From assembly GCA_029244935.1 (NCBI GenBank), contig JAQWQF010000001.1:1-64000 (forward strand): 64,000 nucleotides of DNA, written 5' to 3'. The stretch's first letter is position 1. Every line of letters starts with the position of its first letter. The position numbers were made by a program, and so were the translations under genes. This document shows positions 52,004-64,000 of the stretch, in pieces. The notes below the pieces were generated by a model that saw only the letters and a list, made by a program, of their open reading frames with translations, searched no databases and had not been told where the DNA came from. The stretch comes from Methylophilaceae bacterium (GTDB lineage: Bacteria; Pseudomonadota; Gammaproteobacteria; Burkholderiales; Methylophilaceae).

Positions 52004-53212
52004 TTAAATTTTATTTCTATAATCTGGTTTGGTAATATGGAGATGTATATTACTGATTGATTTCTCTAAAAACCCACCCTCACAATAGCAGAAATAAAAT
52101 AACCACATCCTTATAAATTCTTCATCGAAACCTAACTTTATAATATCTTTATTGTTCCTAGTAAATTTTTTTCTCCAGTCAGCCAATGTTTTAGCATAAT
52201 GCTGGCCAATATCACTTAAATCATAAACCACCATATCACCTGAGCAAGTTATTGAATTTTGTATGGCATTTAATGACGGTATACAGCTTCCTGGAAATAT
52301 ATACTTTTGAATAAAATCAACTGATCGTATAGCCTTTTGATACCTTTGGTCTCTTATAGTGATTCCCTGAATTAGGGCGTCACCATTTTTGTTTAGTAAC
52401 TCAGATATTTTTTTAAAATACGAATCATAGAATTTGTGACCAACAGCCTCAATCATCTCAATTGAAACTAATTTATCGTATTTACCAGTTAACTCTCTGT
52501 AATCCTTGAATATAACCTTTATATGTTTTTCGAGCTTTAGTTGCTTAATTCTTTCACAGACATATTTGTACTGTTCCTTAGAAATTGTTGTTGTTGTAAC
52601 ATGACAACCATAATGTTTAGCTGCATGTATTGCAAACCCGCCCCAACCAGAACCAATTTCAATAACATGGTGTGATTTTTTAAGGTCTAATTTTCTACAG
52701 ATTATATCTAGCTTATGTTCTGCAGCTACTTCTAATGTTGATGTTTTATTGGGGTAAATTGCCGAGGAATACATCATTGACGGATCTAGAAATAATGAAA
52801 AAAATTTATTACTAAGGTCATAATGTTGTGCAATATTTTTTTTACTTCCATAAAGTGTATTTCTATTCAATGCATGCAATATTCTAAGAAGTGGAGCAGT
52901 TAGAATTCTAAATGGACCTTCAATAGAATCCATAGTTGATTGATTACGCGCCATCAACTGTATTACTTTAGTTACATCTTTTGATGTCCATGATTTATGG
53001 ATATAAGCCTCACTTGCCCCTATAGAGCCTCCAAGAAGAATTTCAGTATAAAAACTTGGGTTGGTGACTTTAATTTCAGCTTTTAGGACACTTTGAGTAC
53101 CAAATTTATAGATATTATTGCTTTCTGTAATTAAAAGCTGACCATTGGAAATTTTTTTAAGATTTCTATGTACTATTTTTTTTGCAAATTTGTTTAAATA
53201 TTCTCTTATCAT
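52004..53212 (-). CDS. Cyclopropane-fatty-acyl-phospholipid synthase family SAM methyltransferase (copy 1)
   Basis: QHYDLSNKFFSLFLDPSMMYSSAIY, VIEIGSGWGGFAIHAAKHYGCHVTTTTISKEQY. Confidence 0.93.
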   Translation of the reverse strand: MIREYLNKFAKKIVHRNLKKISNGQLLITESNNIYKFGTQSVLKAEIKVTNPSFYTEILLGGSIGASEAYIHKSWTSKDVTKVIQLMARNQSTMDSIEGPFRILTAPLLRILHALNRNTLYGSKKNIAQHYDLSNKFFSLFLDPSMMYSSAIYPNKTSTLEVAAEHKLDIICRKLDLKKSHHVIEIGSGWGGFAIHAAKHYGCHVTTTTISKEQYKYVCERIKQLKLEKHIKVIFKDYRELTGKYDKLVSIEMIEAVGHKFYDSYFKKISELLNKNGDALIQGITIRDQRYQKAIRSVDFIQKYIFPGSCIPSLNAIQNSITCSGDMVVYDLSDIGQHYAKTLADWRKKFTRNNKDIIKLGFDEEFIRMWLFYFCYCEGGFLEKSISNIHLHITKPDYRNKI

Positions 53213-53940
53213 GGGTGTGGGTAGAACCTCACTCTTTTTATAAATAATATCAATGCATTAAAATAAATTAGCACAATCGATTTAATTGACATTGGTAGAG
53301 ATAAAAATAAAATTTTATTCAGTGTAAAGTTATTCCATGCTTTCTTTGTCATTTTAAGAGTAGCATTAAATACTAATTTGTCATTACGGTAACTGTCCAT
53401 TGAAACAAAAAGGAAGTCCTTTGGAGGGCTAAATACCCAACTATAATTTATATTCATCGGCATAAATGGTGAGACATGAAACCCTTTATCAAATTCAAAC
53501 TTCTTAGACATTGATGGCTTATTTCTGCAGTCATGAACATAAATATATTTTTCATTCCATGGAGTATTTGTTATGTGGGATACAATTGCCTGAATATTTG
53601 ATGATTCGTCAAAACAATAATAAAAGCTAACAGGATTAAATGTAAACCCGAAGGAGCGTATAGTTGTTAGTAAAAAAATCTTTCCTTTATGGTTTAAATT
53701 AATTTCTTTTAACAATAAGGTCTTAATAGAATTCTTAATTGATTTTCTTTTGTCCCCATAAAAATCTGATCGATAAAAAGAGGCAAGGTTTGGCTTGTTA
53801 TAGCTCCAAAATAATTTTCCTAAGAATGCATCCTGAAGCCCATCAAGATCAAGGAAGAGCATGTTAGTTTTATACCTAAATTTATGAGATTTTGATGAAA
53901 ATCGTGTGTGTGCAATTGTGCCTTGGTAGATTGCATGCAT
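53209..53940 (-). CDS. DUF1365 family protein
   Basis: IYQGTIAHTRFSSKSHKFRYKTNMLFLDLDGL, GFTFNPVSFYYCFD, KGFHVSPFMPMN; 4-nt overlap with the Cfa-like gene. Confidence 0.9.
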   Translation of the reverse strand: MHAIYQGTIAHTRFSSKSHKFRYKTNMLFLDLDGLQDAFLGKLFWSYNKPNLASFYRSDFYGDKRKSIKNSIKTLLLKEINLNHKGKIFLLTTIRSFGFTFNPVSFYYCFDESSNIQAIVSHITNTPWNEKYIYVHDCRNKPSMSKKFEFDKGFHVSPFMPMNINYSWVFSPPKDFLFVSMDSYRNDKLVFNATLKMTKKAWNNFTLNKILFLSLPMSIKSIVLIYFNALILFIKRVRFYPHP

Positions 53941-53941
53941 T

Positions 53942-55183
53942 TTAATTTATCAGCTTATTTAGTTGACTTACGACATCATATGCGCTTTTGACTCCGTCTT
54001 CATGAAATCCATTTCCCCAGTACGCACCAGCGTAAAATGTTCTGTTAGCTCCTGAAATTAAGTGATGATTTTTTTGTGCATTAATTCCATCAATCGTAAA
54101 CACAGGGTGTGCATAACTTAATTTTTTTATAATTTTTTTCGGGTCAATATTACTTTTTGGATTTAATGTTACAAGAATAGGGCTCTCACTTTTAATATTT
54201 TGAAGTATATTCATATTGTATGTCAGAGAGATAGGTTCATGGCTTTTGTTATCAATATTATAGTTCCATGCAGCCCATGATAATTTATGTTTTGGCATTA
54301 TCGATGCGTCTGTATGCAAATAAACTTCATTATCAGCATAGGGTATTGAGCTTAGTAATTCTTTTTCCTCGTAGCTAGTGTCTTTTATTAGTTGCAAGGC
54401 TTCACTACTATGACAAGCCATGAATAAATAATCAAAACTTTCACTGCCTTGATTGTGGTGAATAACGACTTTATTTTCCATTCTTTCAATCAACCTTATA
54501 TTAGAATTCAGTTTTATTGAATTAATAAATGGCTCACATAGCTTTTTAACATAGGACTCTGATCCCCCAGTGACTGTTAGCCATTGAGGCCTATCATTGA
54601 TATTGAGCATGCCATGATTATGAAAAAATTTTACAAAAAACTTGGCTGGAAAGTTAAGCATAGTTTTTAAATTAGACGACCAGATTGCTGAACCCATAGG
54701 TAATATATAATGTTTTGAAAAGTAGCTAGAATAATTATTATTAGCTAAATAATCACCTAATGTTATCTCTTCTTTAGCACTAAGTAACTCAAGAGCCTCT
54801 TTATTAAAGCGAAAAATTTCTAAAATCATTTTAATAAACTTAAGATTGAATAAGTTTTTTCTTTGAGAGAATAAAGTGTTTAGATTTGTACCGTTGTATT
54901 CAAGACCAGACAGTTTTGAAAAAACACTAAAACTCATATTACTATTTTCGTAATCAACTCCCAATTTGTCGAGTAATGATGTAAATAATGGGTAAGTTTT
55001 TTTGTTAAAAACAATAAATCCTGTGTCGACAGGAATAGATTTACCCTCTAATTGAACTTTATGAGTATGTGAATGACCACCAATTCGGTCATTTTTCTCG
55101 AATACTGTAATTTTATGTTCTTTATGAAGAAGGTGGGCGATAGTATTTCCAGAGATGCCAGCCCCAACTATAGCTATTTTCAT
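53942..55183 (-). CDS. FAD-dependent (amine oxidase-like) oxidoreductase
   Basis: MKIAIVGAGISGNTIAHLLHKEHKITVFEKNDRIGGHSHTH; C-terminal FYAGAYWGNGFHEDGVKSA. Confidence 0.92.
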   Translation of the reverse strand: MKIAIVGAGISGNTIAHLLHKEHKITVFEKNDRIGGHSHTHKVQLEGKSIPVDTGFIVFNKKTYPLFTSLLDKLGVDYENSNMSFSVFSKLSGLEYNGTNLNTLFSQRKNLFNLKFIKMILEIFRFNKEALELLSAKEEITLGDYLANNNYSSYFSKHYILPMGSAIWSSNLKTMLNFPAKFFVKFFHNHGMLNINDRPQWLTVTGGSESYVKKLCEPFINSIKLNSNIRLIERMENKVVIHHNQGSESFDYLFMACHSSEALQLIKDTSYEEKELLSSIPYADNEVYLHTDASIMPKHKLSWAAWNYNIDNKSHEPISLTYNMNILQNIKSESPILVTLNPKSNIDPKKIIKKLSYAHPVFTIDGINAQKNHHLISGANRTFYAGAYWGNGFHEDGVKSAYDVVSQLNKLIN

Positions 55184-56151
55184 TTTTGGTAAATATTTTT
55201 TTCAGGGCTATTAATTCGATTCGATTCCCTAATATTAGTAGACACAGTTCTTACGTCCCATATCAAGCCGAATAATGACATTAATTTTAGAAGGTAATAG
55301 GTTATATCAATTTCCCACCAATAGAATCCTTGGCGAGCTGAGCCCGGGAAATGATGATGATTATTATGCCAGCCTTCGCCGAACGTTAGTAAGGCGATAA
55401 AAAAATTATTTTTACTTTCATCCTTGGTTTTATATCGAGGCTTCCCCCAAAGGTGAGCAACTGAATTTACAAGAAATGTAGAGTGGTATAAAACAACTGT
55501 TGATAATACAAAGCCCCACGACAATAGTTGCAGACCGTTAGTATTCAAAGTAGGGTGATTCGTATTCAAATATTCACCAAAGAAATAGAGGGATACGCAT
55601 GTTATGATAGGTACGAGTACGTCAAAACGATCAATTAACCTTAGTTCGGGGTACCGAAAAAGCTCTTTTACCATTTTTGTGTGTGTGAGAAAATTAGCTT
55701 TTGTTAGAAACCATCCTGTGTGACTCCAAAAGAAACTGTGTGCCTTCGGCGAATGTTTGTCATTAATTGTATCAGAATGCACATGATGTTCTCTGTGATG
55801 TGCAGCCCACCAAATTGGACCTCTTTGAACAGCTGAGGCACCTACAATAGCAAAAATAAATTGCATTAGTCGACTAGTTTTAAAAGTTTTATGGGAAAAA
55901 TAACGGTGATAAAAGCCGGTAATAGCAAACATTCTAATAGCATACATTGATATGAATACCGCAATTGCAGTTTTACTTACTCCGACAAAGAATAGAGATA
56001 TAAGAGAGAGATGAATAATAATATAAGGGATAACCCGAGCCCAATCAATTTCTTTTCCGTGCAGGTTGATATTAAGATATTTTTCTTCAACAACTCTGTT
56101 GTCAAACCAGCTAACAAAATGACGTATTAGATATTTTGTTATGCGGATCAT
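55180..56151 (-). CDS. Membrane fatty acid desaturase (delta-9 acyl desaturase family)
   Basis: Three His boxes HRYFSH, HREHH, HNNHHH; multiple TM segments. Confidence 0.93.
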   Translation of the reverse strand: MIRITKYLIRHFVSWFDNRVVEEKYLNINLHGKEIDWARVIPYIIIHLSLISLFFVGVSKTAIAVFISMYAIRMFAITGFYHRYFSHKTFKTSRLMQFIFAIVGASAVQRGPIWWAAHHREHHVHSDTINDKHSPKAHSFFWSHTGWFLTKANFLTHTKMVKELFRYPELRLIDRFDVLVPIITCVSLYFFGEYLNTNHPTLNTNGLQLLSWGFVLSTVVLYHSTFLVNSVAHLWGKPRYKTKDESKNNFFIALLTFGEGWHNNHHHFPGSARQGFYWWEIDITYYLLKLMSLFGLIWDVRTVSTNIRESNRINSPEKNIYQK

Positions 56152-56666
56152 TGATGGGGAACCATTCTAAGTAGGTCGGTGTTATAGCCTAAAGCGTTTA
56201 TGTGAGCCACTATTTTATCAAGCTCTGGTTTATCTATCTCATTGGCTCTTGACATTATCCATACATAATCAAGGGCATCACGAGCTATTACAGTTGTTTT
56301 GTAATCATTATCTAGATAAGTTATTTTGTATTGAGACTTAAAAGGCCATATAAACTGCATATCCCATTGAGCATTATTCGTACCTTCTACAATAAAGCCT
56401 TTTGGATTATATGTCTTTTCTTGACCCTTAAGAGAGCCTTTATTAAACGTAAATGTTGTTGCAATAGTGCCATCATTATTAAGCTCATACGATTCAATTG
56501 CGTTATAGGCTTCTTTTTCAATAAATGTCGGTATGTGCGCGATCACATACCATGAACCCATAAACTCATTTATGTCGACTTGATCAACTGTTCTTAGGTT
56601 AACTGAGTTCATTGAACATCCAGAAATAAAAAAAAATATAAAAAAAATTATTTTAAAAACAATCAT
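56148..56666 (-). CDS. Lipocalin-family lipoprotein (Blc-like)
   Basis: Lipobox FISGC; EFMGSWYVIAHIPTFIEKEAYNAIESYELN lipocalin GxW motif; YVWIMSR. Confidence 0.88.
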   Translation of the reverse strand: MIVFKIIFFIFFFISGCSMNSVNLRTVDQVDINEFMGSWYVIAHIPTFIEKEAYNAIESYELNNDGTIATTFTFNKGSLKGQEKTYNPKGFIVEGTNNAQWDMQFIWPFKSQYKITYLDNDYKTTVIARDALDYVWIMSRANEIDKPELDKIVAHINALGYNTDLLRMVPHQ

Positions 56667-56679
56667 ATATAATAAATAA

Positions 56680-57306
56680 TTAAATTAATTTATAGAAAAT
56701 ATCACCTATTGGTGTTGGTGATTTTAAACCAACCCAATTCATTTCTTTATCATACCAAAGATCAATAACTAGACGTTCATTCCCCTCCTTAGTTCCTTTT
56801 AAAACATAATGATTTGTCATTATGTTTTGCCCTTTAACTGACAACAATTCTTGTTTAATTAAAGTTGTTTCAATGTCCAGCCATTCTGCATTTTGTGGAT
56901 TAAGAAGCTTTTTTTCTTTTAGCATATTTGGATCCCAATAAGCGAATGTCATAATACAAGCGGGAAGGGATTCGGTAAGTTTGTTAGTTTTAATAAGAAA
57001 TTCATTACCATTTAAAAGGCCATTCACTTCAATGATTTTTCCATCATCATCTGTTTTGCTATCAATTTTAGTCAAACATCCCTGAGTCCATAATTCCGTT
57101 GATACATGTTTGTAGTATATATCCATAAACATAAATTCAATATGAAACTTAGCAGAACTAATTGTTTTCTTATTATCAATCCTGAATGTATGTTGCCCTA
57201 TGATTTTATCATTGAGGATCGCATCAAATTTCCATTCCTGAGCACTCACATTTTCAGAAAAAATAAATAATAGAGTAATTAGGTAGGCTATTTTTTTGGT
57301 GGCCAT
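56680..57306 (-). CDS. Exported DUF6134-like protein
   Basis: Signal peptide ending SENVSAQ; GQHTF and C-terminal DLWYDKEMNWVGLKSPTPIGDIFYKL; family assigned from memory. Confidence 0.6.
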   Translation of the reverse strand: MATKKIAYLITLLFIFSENVSAQEWKFDAILNDKIIGQHTFRIDNKKTISSAKFHIEFMFMDIYYKHVSTELWTQGCLTKIDSKTDDDGKIIEVNGLLNGNEFLIKTNKLTESLPACIMTFAYWDPNMLKEKKLLNPQNAEWLDIETTLIKQELLSVKGQNIMTNHYVLKGTKEGNERLVIDLWYDKEMNWVGLKSPTPIGDIFYKLI

Positions 57307-58049
57307 GGGATAAAGCTCGATGTGTGTTGTGCGTATTTTTTATATCCTGGCCGTCTACCAGAAATAGTACTTTCCATTCTGCCAATACCAGAAAATTTGA
57401 GGAGTAACCATGTCATGAGAATTGGTGAGAAAATTGCAATCAGATGACCGGAGCTGAAAGAGACAATATAAAAACCCCACCAAACTAGAAATTCACCAAA
57501 ATAATTTGGATGCCTTGAATATCGCCATAAGCCTGTATCTAGAACTCCCTTGTGATTACCATTAACAAATTGCTTAAGCTGGTAGTCGGCTATAGTTTCG
57601 TACAATATGCCAAATATAATGATTCCAAGTCCAATCTTATCAATCATACTGTAAGGGTGGTCACTATTTGCTAATGCTATCAATGGTAGGGATATAACCA
57701 TAGCTAATACAGCCTGGAATATAAATATTATATATAAGCTTTTGAATTTAAAGTTTGGCTCATTGTTGCTTCTAATTTCCTGGTACCGAATATCTTCCTT
57801 GGAGCCAAAGTTGCGGATTGAAAGATAGGCCGTTAATCTTGCTGACCAAATTAAAACCAAAAATAAGACTGCTATATTTTGATTGGAAAGTAGCCATGTT
57901 TCTTGCAATGCTGTGACGTATGCAATAACAATAAAGATACTCCACATACTATCTACATGTGTAACATTCTTTGTTACTAGGCTAACTGCCCAACCAATGA
58001 TCGCAAAAATAAGTAAGTTTCCAGCTATTAAAATATAAATATCAATCAT
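57288..58049 (-). CDS. DUF1295 membrane protein (steroid 5-alpha-reductase-like fold)
   Basis: DTGLWRYSRHPNYFGEFLVWWGFYI, multi-TM, C-terminal SGRRPGYKKYAQHTSSFIPWPPKK. Confidence 0.9.
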   Translation of the reverse strand: MIDIYILIAGNLLIFAIIGWAVSLVTKNVTHVDSMWSIFIVIAYVTALQETWLLSNQNIAVLFLVLIWSARLTAYLSIRNFGSKEDIRYQEIRSNNEPNFKFKSLYIIFIFQAVLAMVISLPLIALANSDHPYSMIDKIGLGIIIFGILYETIADYQLKQFVNGNHKGVLDTGLWRYSRHPNYFGEFLVWWGFYIVSFSSGHLIAIFSPILMTWLLLKFSGIGRMESTISGRRPGYKKYAQHTSSFIPWPPKK

Positions 58050-58545
58050 TTTTTTGGGATAAATATACTAATAGAGGCGTAAAAACAGCCCATCCTAATG
58101 AAAGAACGAATAATGCTTGAGTTTCAGTGATGGTTATAGCGCCTAATTTCTCGCCTGCAATATAGGCTAAAGGACCACCAATTGATCCAAATAAGGCAGC
58201 CAAGGCCATCCGTCCTTTTAACCAACTAAGACTATGGTTTAAGGTCATAGCAAACATTATCCAAAGAATAATGATCCATAATGGCGTAAGGGGGTATGGC
58301 CATCCTGGATCATTATATAAAATTAAGCTGTTGTATTGTATTAGCCCATCGAATAAAAACCCGATGATAGCTGCGTAGATAAATAATTTAATATCCTGCA
58401 TATAGTTTTGAATAACTTTTAGGTGAATTAATATAATAACTACTGAAACAATTATTGCTTCTGAGGTTCTTCCGTAGGCTGCTCCTAAAATGGCAGTAAA
58501 CCATCCAAACTGAAATAAAAGAAAGTTGATTAATTTAGATTTCAT
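58042..58545 (-). CDS. DUF2878-like multi-TM membrane protein
   Basis: Multi-TM; PLTPLWIIILWIMFAMTLNHSLSWL; position in the Cfa/DUF1295 cluster. Confidence 0.75.
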   Translation of the reverse strand: MKSKLINFLLFQFGWFTAILGAAYGRTSEAIIVSVVIILIHLKVIQNYMQDIKLFIYAAIIGFLFDGLIQYNSLILYNDPGWPYPLTPLWIIILWIMFAMTLNHSLSWLKGRMALAALFGSIGGPLAYIAGEKLGAITITETQALFVLSLGWAVFTPLLVYLSQKND

Positions 58546-59573
58546 TTTTTAAAAAGATAATGTGAAACTCGCCATTCATCACCGTCGTTGAAGCCCCAGA
58601 GCTCAGCACATGCCATAAAGAATATTCTCCAACGCTGTAACCATTTTTTTGCATCATTTTTTCCGTAAACACTCTCCAGAGATTGTATAGCTTTTATATT
58701 ATTTTTATCAATATTTTTAAGCCAGGCATTAGCCGTATTTTCATAATGGTTTCCTGACCAAGTCCATTGCTTCTCTATCTTAATTTTATCTTGAAAGTGA
58801 AGAGGAAGGTCCTCACTTGGCATCATTCCACCAGAGAAAAAATACTGACTCATCCAGTCATCCTTGTCCTCAACTTCGAAGAGATAAGGTTGAGATTTAT
58901 GCACAAATATGTGCATAAAGAATTTTCCTTTAGGGTTGAGCCACCTAGAAATATTTGCAAATAATTTCCTATGATTTCGCATATGTTCAATCATTTCTAC
59001 AGATACTATTCGGTCATATTTTTTGTTAGTTTTAAAAATATTCATATCGCATGTTATTACCTCAATATTTTTAAGTTTTCTTAATTTTGCTTGAGATAAA
59101 ATATAAGTGCGTTGTGAGGATGAATTTGATACGGCAGTTATCGAACTTTTTGGGTAATGTTTAGCCATCCATAGAGTGAGCGAGCCCCACCCACAACCAA
59201 GTTCTAGAATACTTAGGCCATCCTTAAGATTGGCATGATTACAAGTTTTTTTTAAGGCTAACTTTTCAGCTTGATCAAGATTATTTGTTTTTTTATCCCA
59301 ATAACAAGAACTATATTTTTTATTTAATCCTAAGCAAAGATTATAAAATTCAGCAGGAACCTCATAATGTTGTTCGTTAGCTAGCTCTGGAACCAATGCA
59401 ATTGGAGACTCGTCCATTGCATTAATAAAATTTTGTTTTATCTTCTGTCTCTCCTCTGATGTCCCTTTTGAGAGTGAATGTAGTCTTTTTTTAAGAAGGG
59501 ATCTAATTCCATACCGTATTAATGTATCCGGCAAAAGATTTTTTTCAGCAATTTTTATTAATATTGTAATCAT
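58542..59573 (-). CDS. Cyclopropane-fatty-acyl-phospholipid synthase-like SAM methyltransferase (copy 2, divergent)
   Basis: ILELGCGWGSLTLWMAKHYPKSSITAVSNSSSQRTYI; YFFSGGMMPSEDLP; DAKKWLQRWRIFFMACAELWGF. Confidence 0.9.
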   Translation of the reverse strand: MITILIKIAEKNLLPDTLIRYGIRSLLKKRLHSLSKGTSEERQKIKQNFINAMDESPIALVPELANEQHYEVPAEFYNLCLGLNKKYSSCYWDKKTNNLDQAEKLALKKTCNHANLKDGLSILELGCGWGSLTLWMAKHYPKSSITAVSNSSSQRTYILSQAKLRKLKNIEVITCDMNIFKTNKKYDRIVSVEMIEHMRNHRKLFANISRWLNPKGKFFMHIFVHKSQPYLFEVEDKDDWMSQYFFSGGMMPSEDLPLHFQDKIKIEKQWTWSGNHYENTANAWLKNIDKNNIKAIQSLESVYGKNDAKKWLQRWRIFFMACAELWGFNDGDEWRVSHYLFKK

Positions 59574-60862: not shown

Positions 60863-61060
60863 ATGCACACAGAAGAATATACGGAAATGATAATACAAAT
60901 ATCAACACTCCTTGATATTGAGCATGATGAGGTAACTAAATTCCTTGAGCTAATGCTTGATGGTTATAATTTCGAAGATGCTGTGAATGGCTGTTCATTA
61001 ACTACGGACGAATGTAAATTAGTTTTAAGCGAAATTCAAAAAAGAAAACCAAAAGAGTAG
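60863..61060 (+). CDS. Small hypothetical protein (65 aa)
   Basis: ATG start at 60863 with upstream GAGGTTAG; acidic helical composition; followed by a terminator-like hairpin. Confidence 0.55.
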   Translation: MHTEEYTEMIIQISTLLDIEHDEVTKFLELMLDGYNFEDAVNGCSLTTDECKLVLSEIQKRKPKE

Positions 61061-61087
61061 ATCTAACGTTTTATTAATCTATATAAG

Positions 61088-61139
61088 TAAGCATTGGTTT
61101 GCCCCATAATTACTGGTGTGGTGCTTATCCTTTTTTTTT
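61088..61139 (+). terminator. Candidate intrinsic terminator
   Basis: TAAGCATTG ... TGGTGCTTA (9 pairs including wobble) followed by TCC and nine Ts. Confidence 0.4.
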
Positions 61140-61226
61140 GGAAAGGCTGAATAATAAGTTTCTTATCTGTGAAGCAATTCATTCTTTTTTTACATCCACA
61201 TCTAACCCTTTGAGACTTTTTATAGA

Positions 61227-61289
61227 TGTAACTAAATTGTTACAAAATAGTAAAAAATTGTTACACAATTGTAAATATATTGTTATACT
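61227..61289 (+). promoter_or_regulatory. Candidate operator array plus promoter for the cytochrome c/PQQ dehydrogenase genes
   Basis: Alternating GTAAC/GTTAC half-sites starting at 61228, 61239, 61250, 61260, 61271, 61282; TGTAAC-N6-GTTACA palindrome at 61227-61244; TGTTATACT extended -10-like element with TATACT at 61284-61289. Confidence 0.6.
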
Positions 61290-61321
61290 AAAATTGCAGT
61301 TTTTTTACTTGTTAGGCTTTT

Positions 61322-61651
61322 ATGATTAAATTATTTATTAGTTTCTTTGGCATTGTTTGTTGTCTTTTGTCATTTCAGGCTTTAGCGGCTGATGCTGCTG
61401 CTGGAAAAATGAGATACAGCAAAACATGCGTTAATTGTCATGGCCCAGCAGGAAAAGGTGCCGCCAGTTATCCAAAAATTTCTGGTAAGGAAATTCCATA
61501 CATAATAGATAAACTTGAAACTTATCGGTCTGGAACTAAAATTGGACCAAATTCAGGTTTAATGATTATGATGGCAAAACCATTAACCGATGAAGAAATT
61601 GCAAATTTAGCAGCGTATTTAAAAGATGCTAAATATATCGTTAACAATTAG
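61322..61651 (+). CDS. Exported class I cytochrome c (single heme)
   Basis: Signal peptide ending ALAA; CVNCH heme site in RYSKTCVNCHGPAGKG; C-terminal MAKPLTDEEIANLAAYL. Confidence 0.93.
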   Translation: MIKLFISFFGIVCCLLSFQALAADAAAGKMRYSKTCVNCHGPAGKGAASYPKISGKEIPYIIDKLETYRSGTKIGPNSGLMIMMAKPLTDEEIANLAAYLKDAKYIVNN

Positions 61652-61663
61652 GAGAGTTATAAA

Positions 61664-62968
61664 ATGAAAGTATTAAGTAAGGTATTTACAGTCATAGTTT
61701 CTGCTATGTTGCTTACTGCAACTTCAGCCTATGCGGAACATCACGGGTCTAAAGGAATGAATGTTCCCAAGATCGGTTCAATGGTAGTTATGTCTGGTTT
61801 ATCAAACCCATGGGACATGACATTTACTAAAGATGGTTCTATGTTTTACACTGAAAAATGTGACGGCCTTTCAGTAAAAACAGCTTCTGGAAAAACACAT
61901 AAGCTTTATGGAATGAAAGGTTCTAAGGGTTATAAGAGTTCTGGTAATGATCTTTTTTGTAGTGGTCAAGCAGGTATGCTAGGCGTTGAATTAGATCCAA
62001 ACTTTAAAAAGAACCGTACACTCTATCTTTATTCTACATCAACCAAATATCATGGTTCTGGATGTAAAACCAATTTTGAAAGATGTGACGGTAATATTGT
62101 TATGAAATTCAAAGTTGCTAAAGATTTGTCAAAAATTTCTGGACGTACCGATATTGTTAAAGATATTCAGTACAAGCCATTTGAGTCTAATCAACCATTT
62201 GGTGGGCCAGGTGCGCACAACGGTGGAAGAATGGCATTTGGACCAGAAGGCTATCTTTGGGTAGGTACTGGTGACCGTCATAGAGGAGTTTGCCCTCAAG
62301 ATAATTCATTAGCTTGTGGTGTAGTTCTTAGAATTGACGGAAATGGTAAAGGCCATCCAAAAAATAAGATTAAAGCGGATAAACGTTTTTATACTTATGG
62401 CCATAGAAATGTTCAAGGTTTAGACTTCCGTCCAAGTGACGGCCAAGCATTTACTGCTGAACATGGACCTTGGCACAATGATGAAATTACTGCATTAGTA
62501 AACGGCGGTAATGGTGGCTGGGATCCACATGAAAAAAGAGCTGGCCGTGGTGCTTGTCCAGATCAATATTGTGGTTATGAGCCGAATCAAATGGAAGGTA
62601 TGACTCCTGCTGTTCGTGCTGCTTATACTCCAATGAGTGATACTCGTTTTAAAGATCTAATGCCTCCTGCTTGGAATAACAACGGCTACTCTCAAGGAAC
62701 TGGTTCTGCTGCTTTCTTGAAAGGTAAAAACTGGGGTATTTATGAAGGACGTTTAGCTACTGGAATCATGGGTATTGGTTTTGGTGGAACACCAGGTGGT
62801 ATGCGTATTGATATCGTTGATCTTGCTAAAGACGGAAAATCAGTTAAAAGTGTGATTCACATGCCTGTTGGCGTATCAAAGAGATTCCGTGGCCTAGAAA
62901 TGGGACCGGACAATGCTTTATATGCTACTACTGATGAAGGTGAAATTTATAAAGTTTCAGCTCAGTAG
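61664..62968 (+). CDS. PQQ-dependent sugar (aldose/sorbosone-type) dehydrogenase, exported
   Basis: Signal peptide; beta-propeller motifs GMLGVELDPNFKKN, GAHNGGRMAFGPEGYLWVGTGDRH, YGHRNVQGLDF, EHGPWHNDEI. Confidence 0.9.
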   Translation: MKVLSKVFTVIVSAMLLTATSAYAEHHGSKGMNVPKIGSMVVMSGLSNPWDMTFTKDGSMFYTEKCDGLSVKTASGKTHKLYGMKGSKGYKSSGNDLFCSGQAGMLGVELDPNFKKNRTLYLYSTSTKYHGSGCKTNFERCDGNIVMKFKVAKDLSKISGRTDIVKDIQYKPFESNQPFGGPGAHNGGRMAFGPEGYLWVGTGDRHRGVCPQDNSLACGVVLRIDGNGKGHPKNKIKADKRFYTYGHRNVQGLDFRPSDGQAFTAEHGPWHNDEITALVNGGNGGWDPHEKRAGRGACPDQYCGYEPNQMEGMTPAVRAAYTPMSDTRFKDLMPPAWNNNGYSQGTGSAAFLKGKNWGIYEGRLATGIMGIGFGGTPGGMRIDIVDLAKDGKSVKSVIHMPVGVSKRFRGLEMGPDNALYATTDEGEIYKVSAQ

Positions 62969-63149: not shown

Positions 63150-63851
63150 TTGAAAATTTTATATTTATTAGCTAATCCTCAAAGAAAAATAATTTTTAAT
63201 TTTGCATTTCTATTCTTTTCTTTAATGGCGCATGCTGGAGAATCAAACTTGATAGATAAAAAACAACTTGTAGTTTTTGAATCTGAGACATGTGGCTCTT
63301 GTAAAGAGTTTGAGAAAGATGTAACAGCTAATTGGAAGTCATCATTTTCAATAGAAAAAACCTATAATATGCAGGCCCCAACTGGTCTTAAACTAAAAGA
63401 ATCTGTATGGGCTACCCCAACTATTGTTATGTTCGATGATGGTAAGGAAGTTTCGAGGTACACAGGTTACGATGGCAATAAACAAGCGTTTTGGAGATGG
63501 TTTGGGCAGAATACTATGACACCAGAGCAAAAAAGAATTGCCTTTGAAGATGGAACAGAGCCTGCCTTTAGCGGATCACTTCTTGATAATCATTTACCAG
63601 GTTATTACGTAGATCCATTAACGGGTGAGCGTTTATTTCGAAGTGATAAAAAATTTGATAGCGGAACTGGTTGGCCAAGCTTTTTTAATCCTGTTCCAGG
63701 TTCATTGGTATTTAATGACGATGGACGAAGGGTTGAAGTATTAAGTGCAAGTTCAGGCATTCATTTAGGCCATGTATTTAATGATGGCCCTCCACCAACT
63801 GGAAAACGTTATTGTATTAATAGTGCTGTATTGAAGTTTGTAGCCGACTAA
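63150..63851 (+). CDS. msrB: Exported thioredoxin-like domain fused to peptide methionine-(R)-S-oxide reductase MsrB
   Basis: Signal peptide; ETCGSCKEFEKDV Trx-like site; GYYVDPLTGERLFRSDKKFDSGTGWPSFF ... HLGHVFNDGPPPTGKRYCINSA MsrB signature; TTG start with GGGAG RBS. Confidence 0.92.
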   Translation: MKILYLLANPQRKIIFNFAFLFFSLMAHAGESNLIDKKQLVVFESETCGSCKEFEKDVTANWKSSFSIEKTYNMQAPTGLKLKESVWATPTIVMFDDGKEVSRYTGYDGNKQAFWRWFGQNTMTPEQKRIAFEDGTEPAFSGSLLDNHLPGYYVDPLTGERLFRSDKKFDSGTGWPSFFNPVPGSLVFNDDGRRVEVLSASSGIHLGHVFNDGPPPTGKRYCINSAVLKFVAD

Positions 63852-63875
63852 AAAATATCTAGTTTTGAGTGAACT

Positions 63876-64000
63876 ATGAAATCAATATATTGGTTTAGGA
63901 ATGATTTAAGAATAAATGATAACCACTCATTAAATTTAGCAATAGATAGGTCTGATAAGATTCTTTTTGTTTATATTCATGATATTGCAAATAAAAGAAA
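63876..64000 (+). CDS. Deoxyribodipyrimidine photolyase/cryptochrome family, N-terminal fragment (runs off window)
   Basis: MKSIYWFRNDLRINDNHSLNLAIDRSDKILFVYIHDIANKRK: WFRNDLRxxDN photolyase N-terminal motif. Confidence 0.88.
   Translation, partial: MKSIYWFRNDLRINDNHSLNLAIDRSDKILFVYIHDIANKR

Follow-up and report, generated by a model that had tools for sequence, protein, structure and literature searches.

Upstream of a cytochrome c/GSDH gene pair in an OM43-clade Methylophilaceae genome (1.25 Mb, 33% GC; G000) lies a tandem array of six TGTWACA-like units, which is likely to be an OmpR-box site for the cell's own OmpR/RisA-type regulator and part of a predicted methanol-oxidation and respiration regulon. 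The array is situated in the stretch of 64,000 nucleotides analysed here (the window), and the genus relatives with which it was compared include the OM43-clade isolates HTCC2181 (G015), KB13 (G016), LSUCC0665 (G006) and LSUCC0717 (G003). In the OM43 strain NB0046, xoxF is reported to be the most abundant transcript; in coastal waters it ranks with the most strongly transcribed genes, and its level changes 20-fold with the nutrient regime under a regulatory scheme that is unexplained (PMC5120137). A triple OmpR-type box on the xoxF -35 position, together with a regulator that has the same box at its own promoter, offers a testable candidate for xoxF control, and the window array provides another instance of the xoxF-type site, in expanded form.

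A phased array at the cytochrome c/GSDH promoter

The six units start at 61227, 61238, 61249, 61259, 61270 and 61281, i.e., in steps of 11, 11, 10, 11 and 11 bp, and these starts lie 57, 46, 35, 25, 14 and 3 bp before the TATACT hexamer. With respect to the TGTWAC core, units 1, 2 and 4 are exact, units 5 and 6 have one mismatch and unit 3 has two. The preliminary description of this DNA had placed the half-sites correctly (GTAAC 61228, GTTAC 61239, GTAAA 61250, GTTAC 61260, GTAAA 61271, GTTAT 61282), had found the direct repeat AAATTGTTACA at 61234 and 61255, and had noted the -10-like element, at a distance of 33 nt from the start codon (ATG at 61322). The features of the promoter and its genes are as follows.

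61227-61237, + strand: unit 1, TGTAACTAAAT; part of the 61227-61247 stretch identical to the genome's own xoxF site
61238-61248, + strand: unit 2, TGTTACAAAAT; perfect core
61249-61258, + strand: unit 3, AGTAAAAAAT; degenerate, 10-bp step; with unit 4 forms the 21-bp stretch missing from the nearest relative, G026
61259-61269, + strand: unit 4, TGTTACACAAT; perfect core; overlaps the -35 region, starting 25 bp before the -10
61270-61280, + strand: unit 5, TGTAAATATAT; one core mismatch; within the -35/-10 spacer
61281-61287, + strand: unit 6, TGTTATA; one core mismatch; overlaps the -10
61284-61289, + strand: -10 hexamer TATACT with extended TGT (TGTTATACT); TATACT kept at this promoter in G026, G010, G027, G018, G002 and G020
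61322-61651, + strand: small c-type cytochrome, first downstream gene (Pfam PF00034/PF13442)
61664-62968, + strand: soluble GSDH-type (PQQ, beta-propeller) dehydrogenase, second gene (Pfam PF07995, E 1.3e-48)

The array is real and beyond chance. Scored against TGTWACA it reaches 36/42 over six units. Dinucleotide shuffling of the entire 64-kb window, repeated 60 times, gave a best chain of 32, and 3000 shuffled versions of the AT-rich intergenic DNA at 61053-61321 all stayed below 36 (maximum 33). The signal needs the 10-11 bp step, and steps centred on 7-9 and 12-16 bp score at the background of 28-31.

As judged from sequence, the flanking DNA holds two cyclopropane-fatty-acid-synthase-like genes with desaturase-, lipocalin-, DUF1365- and DUF1295-like genes (52004-59573, - strand), and a methionine-sulfoxide-reductase-like gene, a photolyase and a photolyase-related gene (63150-64000, + strand). 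Together these gene sets resemble a light/singlet-oxygen response cluster.

The same site at xoxF, coxB and risA

A genome-wide pattern search found exact TGTWAC-N5-TGTWAC at four places only in G000.

C2:62418: upstream of coxB
C21:47233: between risA and an EF-hand gene, in their divergent promoter
C32:17098: upstream of xoxF (methanol dehydrogenase)
Window array: cytochrome c/GSDH promoter

At xoxF, a triple site of three 11-bp direct repeats is present in all 26 genus genomes examined, and the family members G031 and G032 have a degenerate version (TGTAAATAAATTGTAAATAGAGTATTGCA). Unit 3 of the triple site occupies the -35 position and starts 23 bp (6+17) before a conserved -10 of the TATAAA/TATAGA type. 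In PhoB-type promoters the activator site replaces the -35, and by this analogy the placement of xoxF unit 3 is the PhoB-type arrangement. The risA promoter carries TGTWAC-N5-TGTWAC in nearly all genus genomes, from which autoregulation of risA appears likely. The coxB site is missing in G018, G004 and G028, and in some lineages the coxB sites may be reverse-oriented. Among 10 well-assembled genus genomes, 14 of the 17 distinct exact sites lie just upstream of xoxF, risA or coxB; since raw exact-site counts are only about twice those of a reversed-pattern control, and the 10 genomes share ancestry and are not independent, it is the placement of these sites and not their number that is informative. 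With one or two mismatches allowed, the motif count across G000 falls to the control level, and weaker sites are therefore not callable.

Several risA promoters (G021, L066; G008, L067; G011, L072; also L073, L076 and L078) have a degenerate or 10-bp-spaced site, for example TGTTAATAAAATGTAACG and, in family members, TGTAAAAATTTGTAACA, which suggests drift between 10- and 11-bp spacing. HTCC2181 has exact sites upstream of a rhodopsin gene (L141, G015:C3:167956) and of an fdsG-type formate-dehydrogenase operon (L156, G015:C3:359625); sites at these two promoters are missing in most other relatives, and the fds site is also present in UBA4017. G000 itself encodes a tandem pair of rhodopsin-family genes (C21:3880-5339), the second 76% identical to the HTCC2181 rhodopsin and the first, a distant paralogue, 37%. 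Porins are the classical kind of OmpR target, and a one-mismatch TGTWAC-N5-TGTWAC (L012:2833-2850, G000:C29:31832) lies about 130 bp upstream of a gene judged from its sequence to be porin-like.

Orientation of the units

The half-sites had been described as alternating in orientation, and this reading is not supported. TGTWACA is its own reverse complement, so that nothing about orientation can be read from the switching between GTAAC and GTTAC, which differ only at the central W position. Across the 26 genus genomes the xoxF units read TGTAAnnAAAT / TGTWACRAAAN / TGTTGCAnnnN, with TGT invariant in all three units and the 3′ half (the ACA end) of unit 1 variable. Because this conservation is one-sided, the alignment identifies the xoxF units as head-to-tail direct repeats with an 11-bp step and the core TGTWAC. 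The window array taken alone fits both orientations about equally; the + orientation is preferred because the genome's own xoxF site (TGTAACTAAATTGTTACAAAAC in L009) matches the first 21 bp of the array (61227-61247) base for base.

These alignments also bear on an inverted-repeat operator, TGTAAC-N6-GTTACA, bound by a dimer of the CRP/FNR, TyrR or PpsR/CrtJ type. The perfect 18-bp palindrome TGTAAC-TAAATT-GTTACA reported earlier is indeed present at 61227-61244, and it is found in the genome's own xoxF site as well, which speaks for such an operator, but it is a by-product of W=A followed by W=T in adjacent direct units, and most xoxF orthologues do not preserve it, reading TGTAAnn-N4-TGTAACA instead; we regard this reading as very improbable. 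TyrR and CrtJ/PpsR, which had been offered as comparators, bind spaced inverted repeats, the form that is not kept at xoxF, and the comparison does not appear to be supported. A CRP/FNR operator was rejected because no protein matching the CRP-family HTH model (HTH_Crp_2, PF13545) was found in G000, which is ~95% complete; the same model matches in 14/14 control genomes.

The array among relatives

The window array is, on comparison of orthologous promoters, lineage-specific. In G026, the nearest relative, the promoter is 21 bp (two units) shorter than in the window and carries four units, which lie 36, 25, 14 and 3 bp before the -10; two units each are found in G027, at 34 and 23 bp before the -10, which is the xoxF register, and in G010, at 48 and 37 bp; and the units are missing, though the gene is kept, in at least six relatives (G018, G002, G020, G019, G023 and G017). 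Within the genus, therefore, the site at the cytochrome c/GSDH promoter seems to have arisen, grown or disappeared. Conservation in orthologous promoters, a check proposed in the preliminary description, accordingly gave a divided outcome: the window array itself occurs only in close relatives, while sites of this class are conserved throughout the genus at xoxF and are widespread at risA and coxB.

This distribution raises the question of whether the array is a lineage-specific tandem duplication of a shorter site, with extra units that have no function of their own. The same distances, or nearly the same, from the -10 in G026 despite the missing 21 bp, the two units in G010 and G027 and the lack of units in at least six relatives favour duplication; against it, the indel preserves helical phase, the core of unit 4 is perfect, and four lineages still have strong units in front of this gene. 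We judge functionless extra units to be unlikely, yet a contender of some weight, and one that is compatible with an OmpR-box function of the core units.

The candidate regulator

Sites of the OmpR/PhoB family are direct repeats bound as tandem dimers. The earlier proposal of a cooperative operator whose units face the same side of the helix and are read by a tandem-binding regulator is supported by the 10-11 bp phasing and by homologous sites in orthologous promoters of other genes, and tandem binding is predicted on these grounds. Only two Trans_reg_C proteins were found in G000, namely PhoB and an OmpR/RisA-type regulator (C21:46448-47161; L010) encoded just upstream of a RisS/EnvZ-type kinase that has the RisS periplasmic domain (PF16524). 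The regulator scores 321.0 bits against the NCBIfam OmpR cut-off of 331, and because it falls below this cut-off it is called OmpR/RisA-type and not OmpR. The closest solved structure to its DNA-binding domain is that of E. coli OmpR, with an identical recognition-helix region (RSIDVQISRLRR). The critical core of OmpR sites is reported to be TGTAAC/GXXAC (PMC7867234). The window array combines a direct-repeat step of 10-11 bp, half-sites with this core and a cognate regulator with a site at its own promoter; the 10-bp step at unit 3, a departure from 11 bp, counts against the OmpR-box reading. So do the score below the OmpR cut-off, the restriction of the window array to close relatives, the coxB sites that are missing or perhaps reversed in some lineages, and G007 (91% complete), in which the xoxF and coxB sites are present and no close RisA orthologue was found, perhaps owing to incompleteness. 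The regulator, called unknown in the preliminary description, can be assigned a predicted kind: an OmpR/RisA-type protein whose own promoter carries the site.

The other Trans_reg_C protein invites a reading of the array as a set of PhoB pho boxes. PhoB binds 11-bp direct repeats of 7-bp motifs, the same architecture as here; PhoB (TIGR02154, 326.9 bits against a cut-off of 296.2) and PhoR are both encoded in G000; and xoxF transcription in NB0046 depends on the nutrient regime (PMC5120137). However, the phoB and pstS promoters of G000 have TGTCAT-N5-TGTCAT (TGTCATAAAAATGTCAT, TGTCATTAAAGTGTCAT), a half-site unlike the TGTWAC of the array, and TGTWAC is found at the risA promoter rather than at phoB, which makes a pho-box array improbable.

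A first lead had been an operator for CarH/LitR, a MerR-family, B12-dependent photoreceptor with tandem 11-bp repeats of nnnnTnnACAn. Known CarH operators place such repeats over the -35 and -10 (PMC9304148), and a photolyase-like gene follows at 63876, but the sole MerR-type protein found, in a frame of 115-141 aa, has no room for a cobalamin-binding domain and, at 27.7, falls far below the CarH cut-off of 400, and the sites lie at xoxF, coxB and the OmpR-type gene, not at the photolyase. The lead was dropped since no full-length MerR/B12 protein was found in G000, and we consider this reading barely credible.

Proposed mechanism

Under the OmpR-box reading, three head-to-tail dimers would probably occupy the six 11-bp half-sites. 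By analogy with OmpR, the phosphorylated regulator would fill the strong upstream pair (61227/61238) first and would then spread to the -35-region pair (61249/61259) and finally to the weak -10 pair (61270/61281). Low occupancy would recruit RNA polymerase; in E. coli ompF, full occupancy over the -10 has been proposed to shut the promoter, and on that model it may do so here. Its own gene, xoxF and coxB would likewise be transcribed under this regulator's control, and methanol oxidation would thereby rise and fall in step with its partner cytochromes and with the terminal oxidase.

More tentatively, the OmpR/RisA-type system might be a main controller of electron input and respiration in the OM43 clade (methanol dehydrogenase, cytochrome c/GSDH and terminal oxidase, joined in HTCC2181 by rhodopsin and formate dehydrogenase). 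It would then be an EnvZ/OmpR-type pair turned from envelope control to the regulation of methylotrophy, with targets gained and lost by two-unit (two-turn) indels; we think this possible rather than probable.

Relation to known systems

E. coli EnvZ/OmpR acts on three tandem 20-bp boxes each at ompF and ompC. The window array is like these sites in having three tandem two-half-site boxes at a promoter with the core TGTWAC (PMC7867234), and differs in its period of 11 bp versus 10. The targets differ too: they serve methanol use and respiration, and a porin gene may be among them at one site (C29:31832, one mismatch). In Bordetella RisA/RisS, as here, a betaproteobacterial regulator of the OmpR type is paired with a kinase that has the RisS periplasmic domain, but the targets are others, and the Bordetella RisA paper states no RisA binding motif (PMC5020355). 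M. tuberculosis PhoP recognises 7-bp motifs repeated directly with 4 bp between them, and it can assemble there as trimers and tetramers as well (PMC4832192). The array shares this 7 + 4 layout with the PhoP box and the PhoB pho box, as well as, by prediction, their tandem head-to-tail binding; its half-site is TGTWACA as opposed to TGTCAT or TCACAGC. The tandem 11-bp repeats over -35 and -10 are common to CarH/LitR operators (PMC9304148), whereas the targets here are unrelated to light. MxbDM, MxcQE, MxaB/MxaY and PedS2/PedR2 are known regulators of methanol/alcohol dehydrogenases and, like the system predicted here, exert two-component control of PQQ alcohol dehydrogenases including xoxF; they are other proteins, from alpha- and gammaproteobacteria, and the portion of the source available to us reports none of them as an OmpR/RisA orthologue with such boxes (PMC5018670). 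The array is thus a known kind of site in a new instance; the literature searched contained no description of a regulon of xoxF, coxB, the regulator and cytochrome c/GSDH, and no published link between OmpR and xoxF.

The gene sharing the risA promoter

The gene divergent from risA, which shares its promoter (L010:8258-8818, + strand), encodes a small EF-hand protein with a weak match to lanmodulin (22 bits against a cut-off of 135). By tblastn it is present at 29/30 RisA loci across the genus and family, and this pairing of an EF-hand gene with an OmpR-type regulator and kinase, conserved in lanthanide-using methylotrophs, may merit a look.
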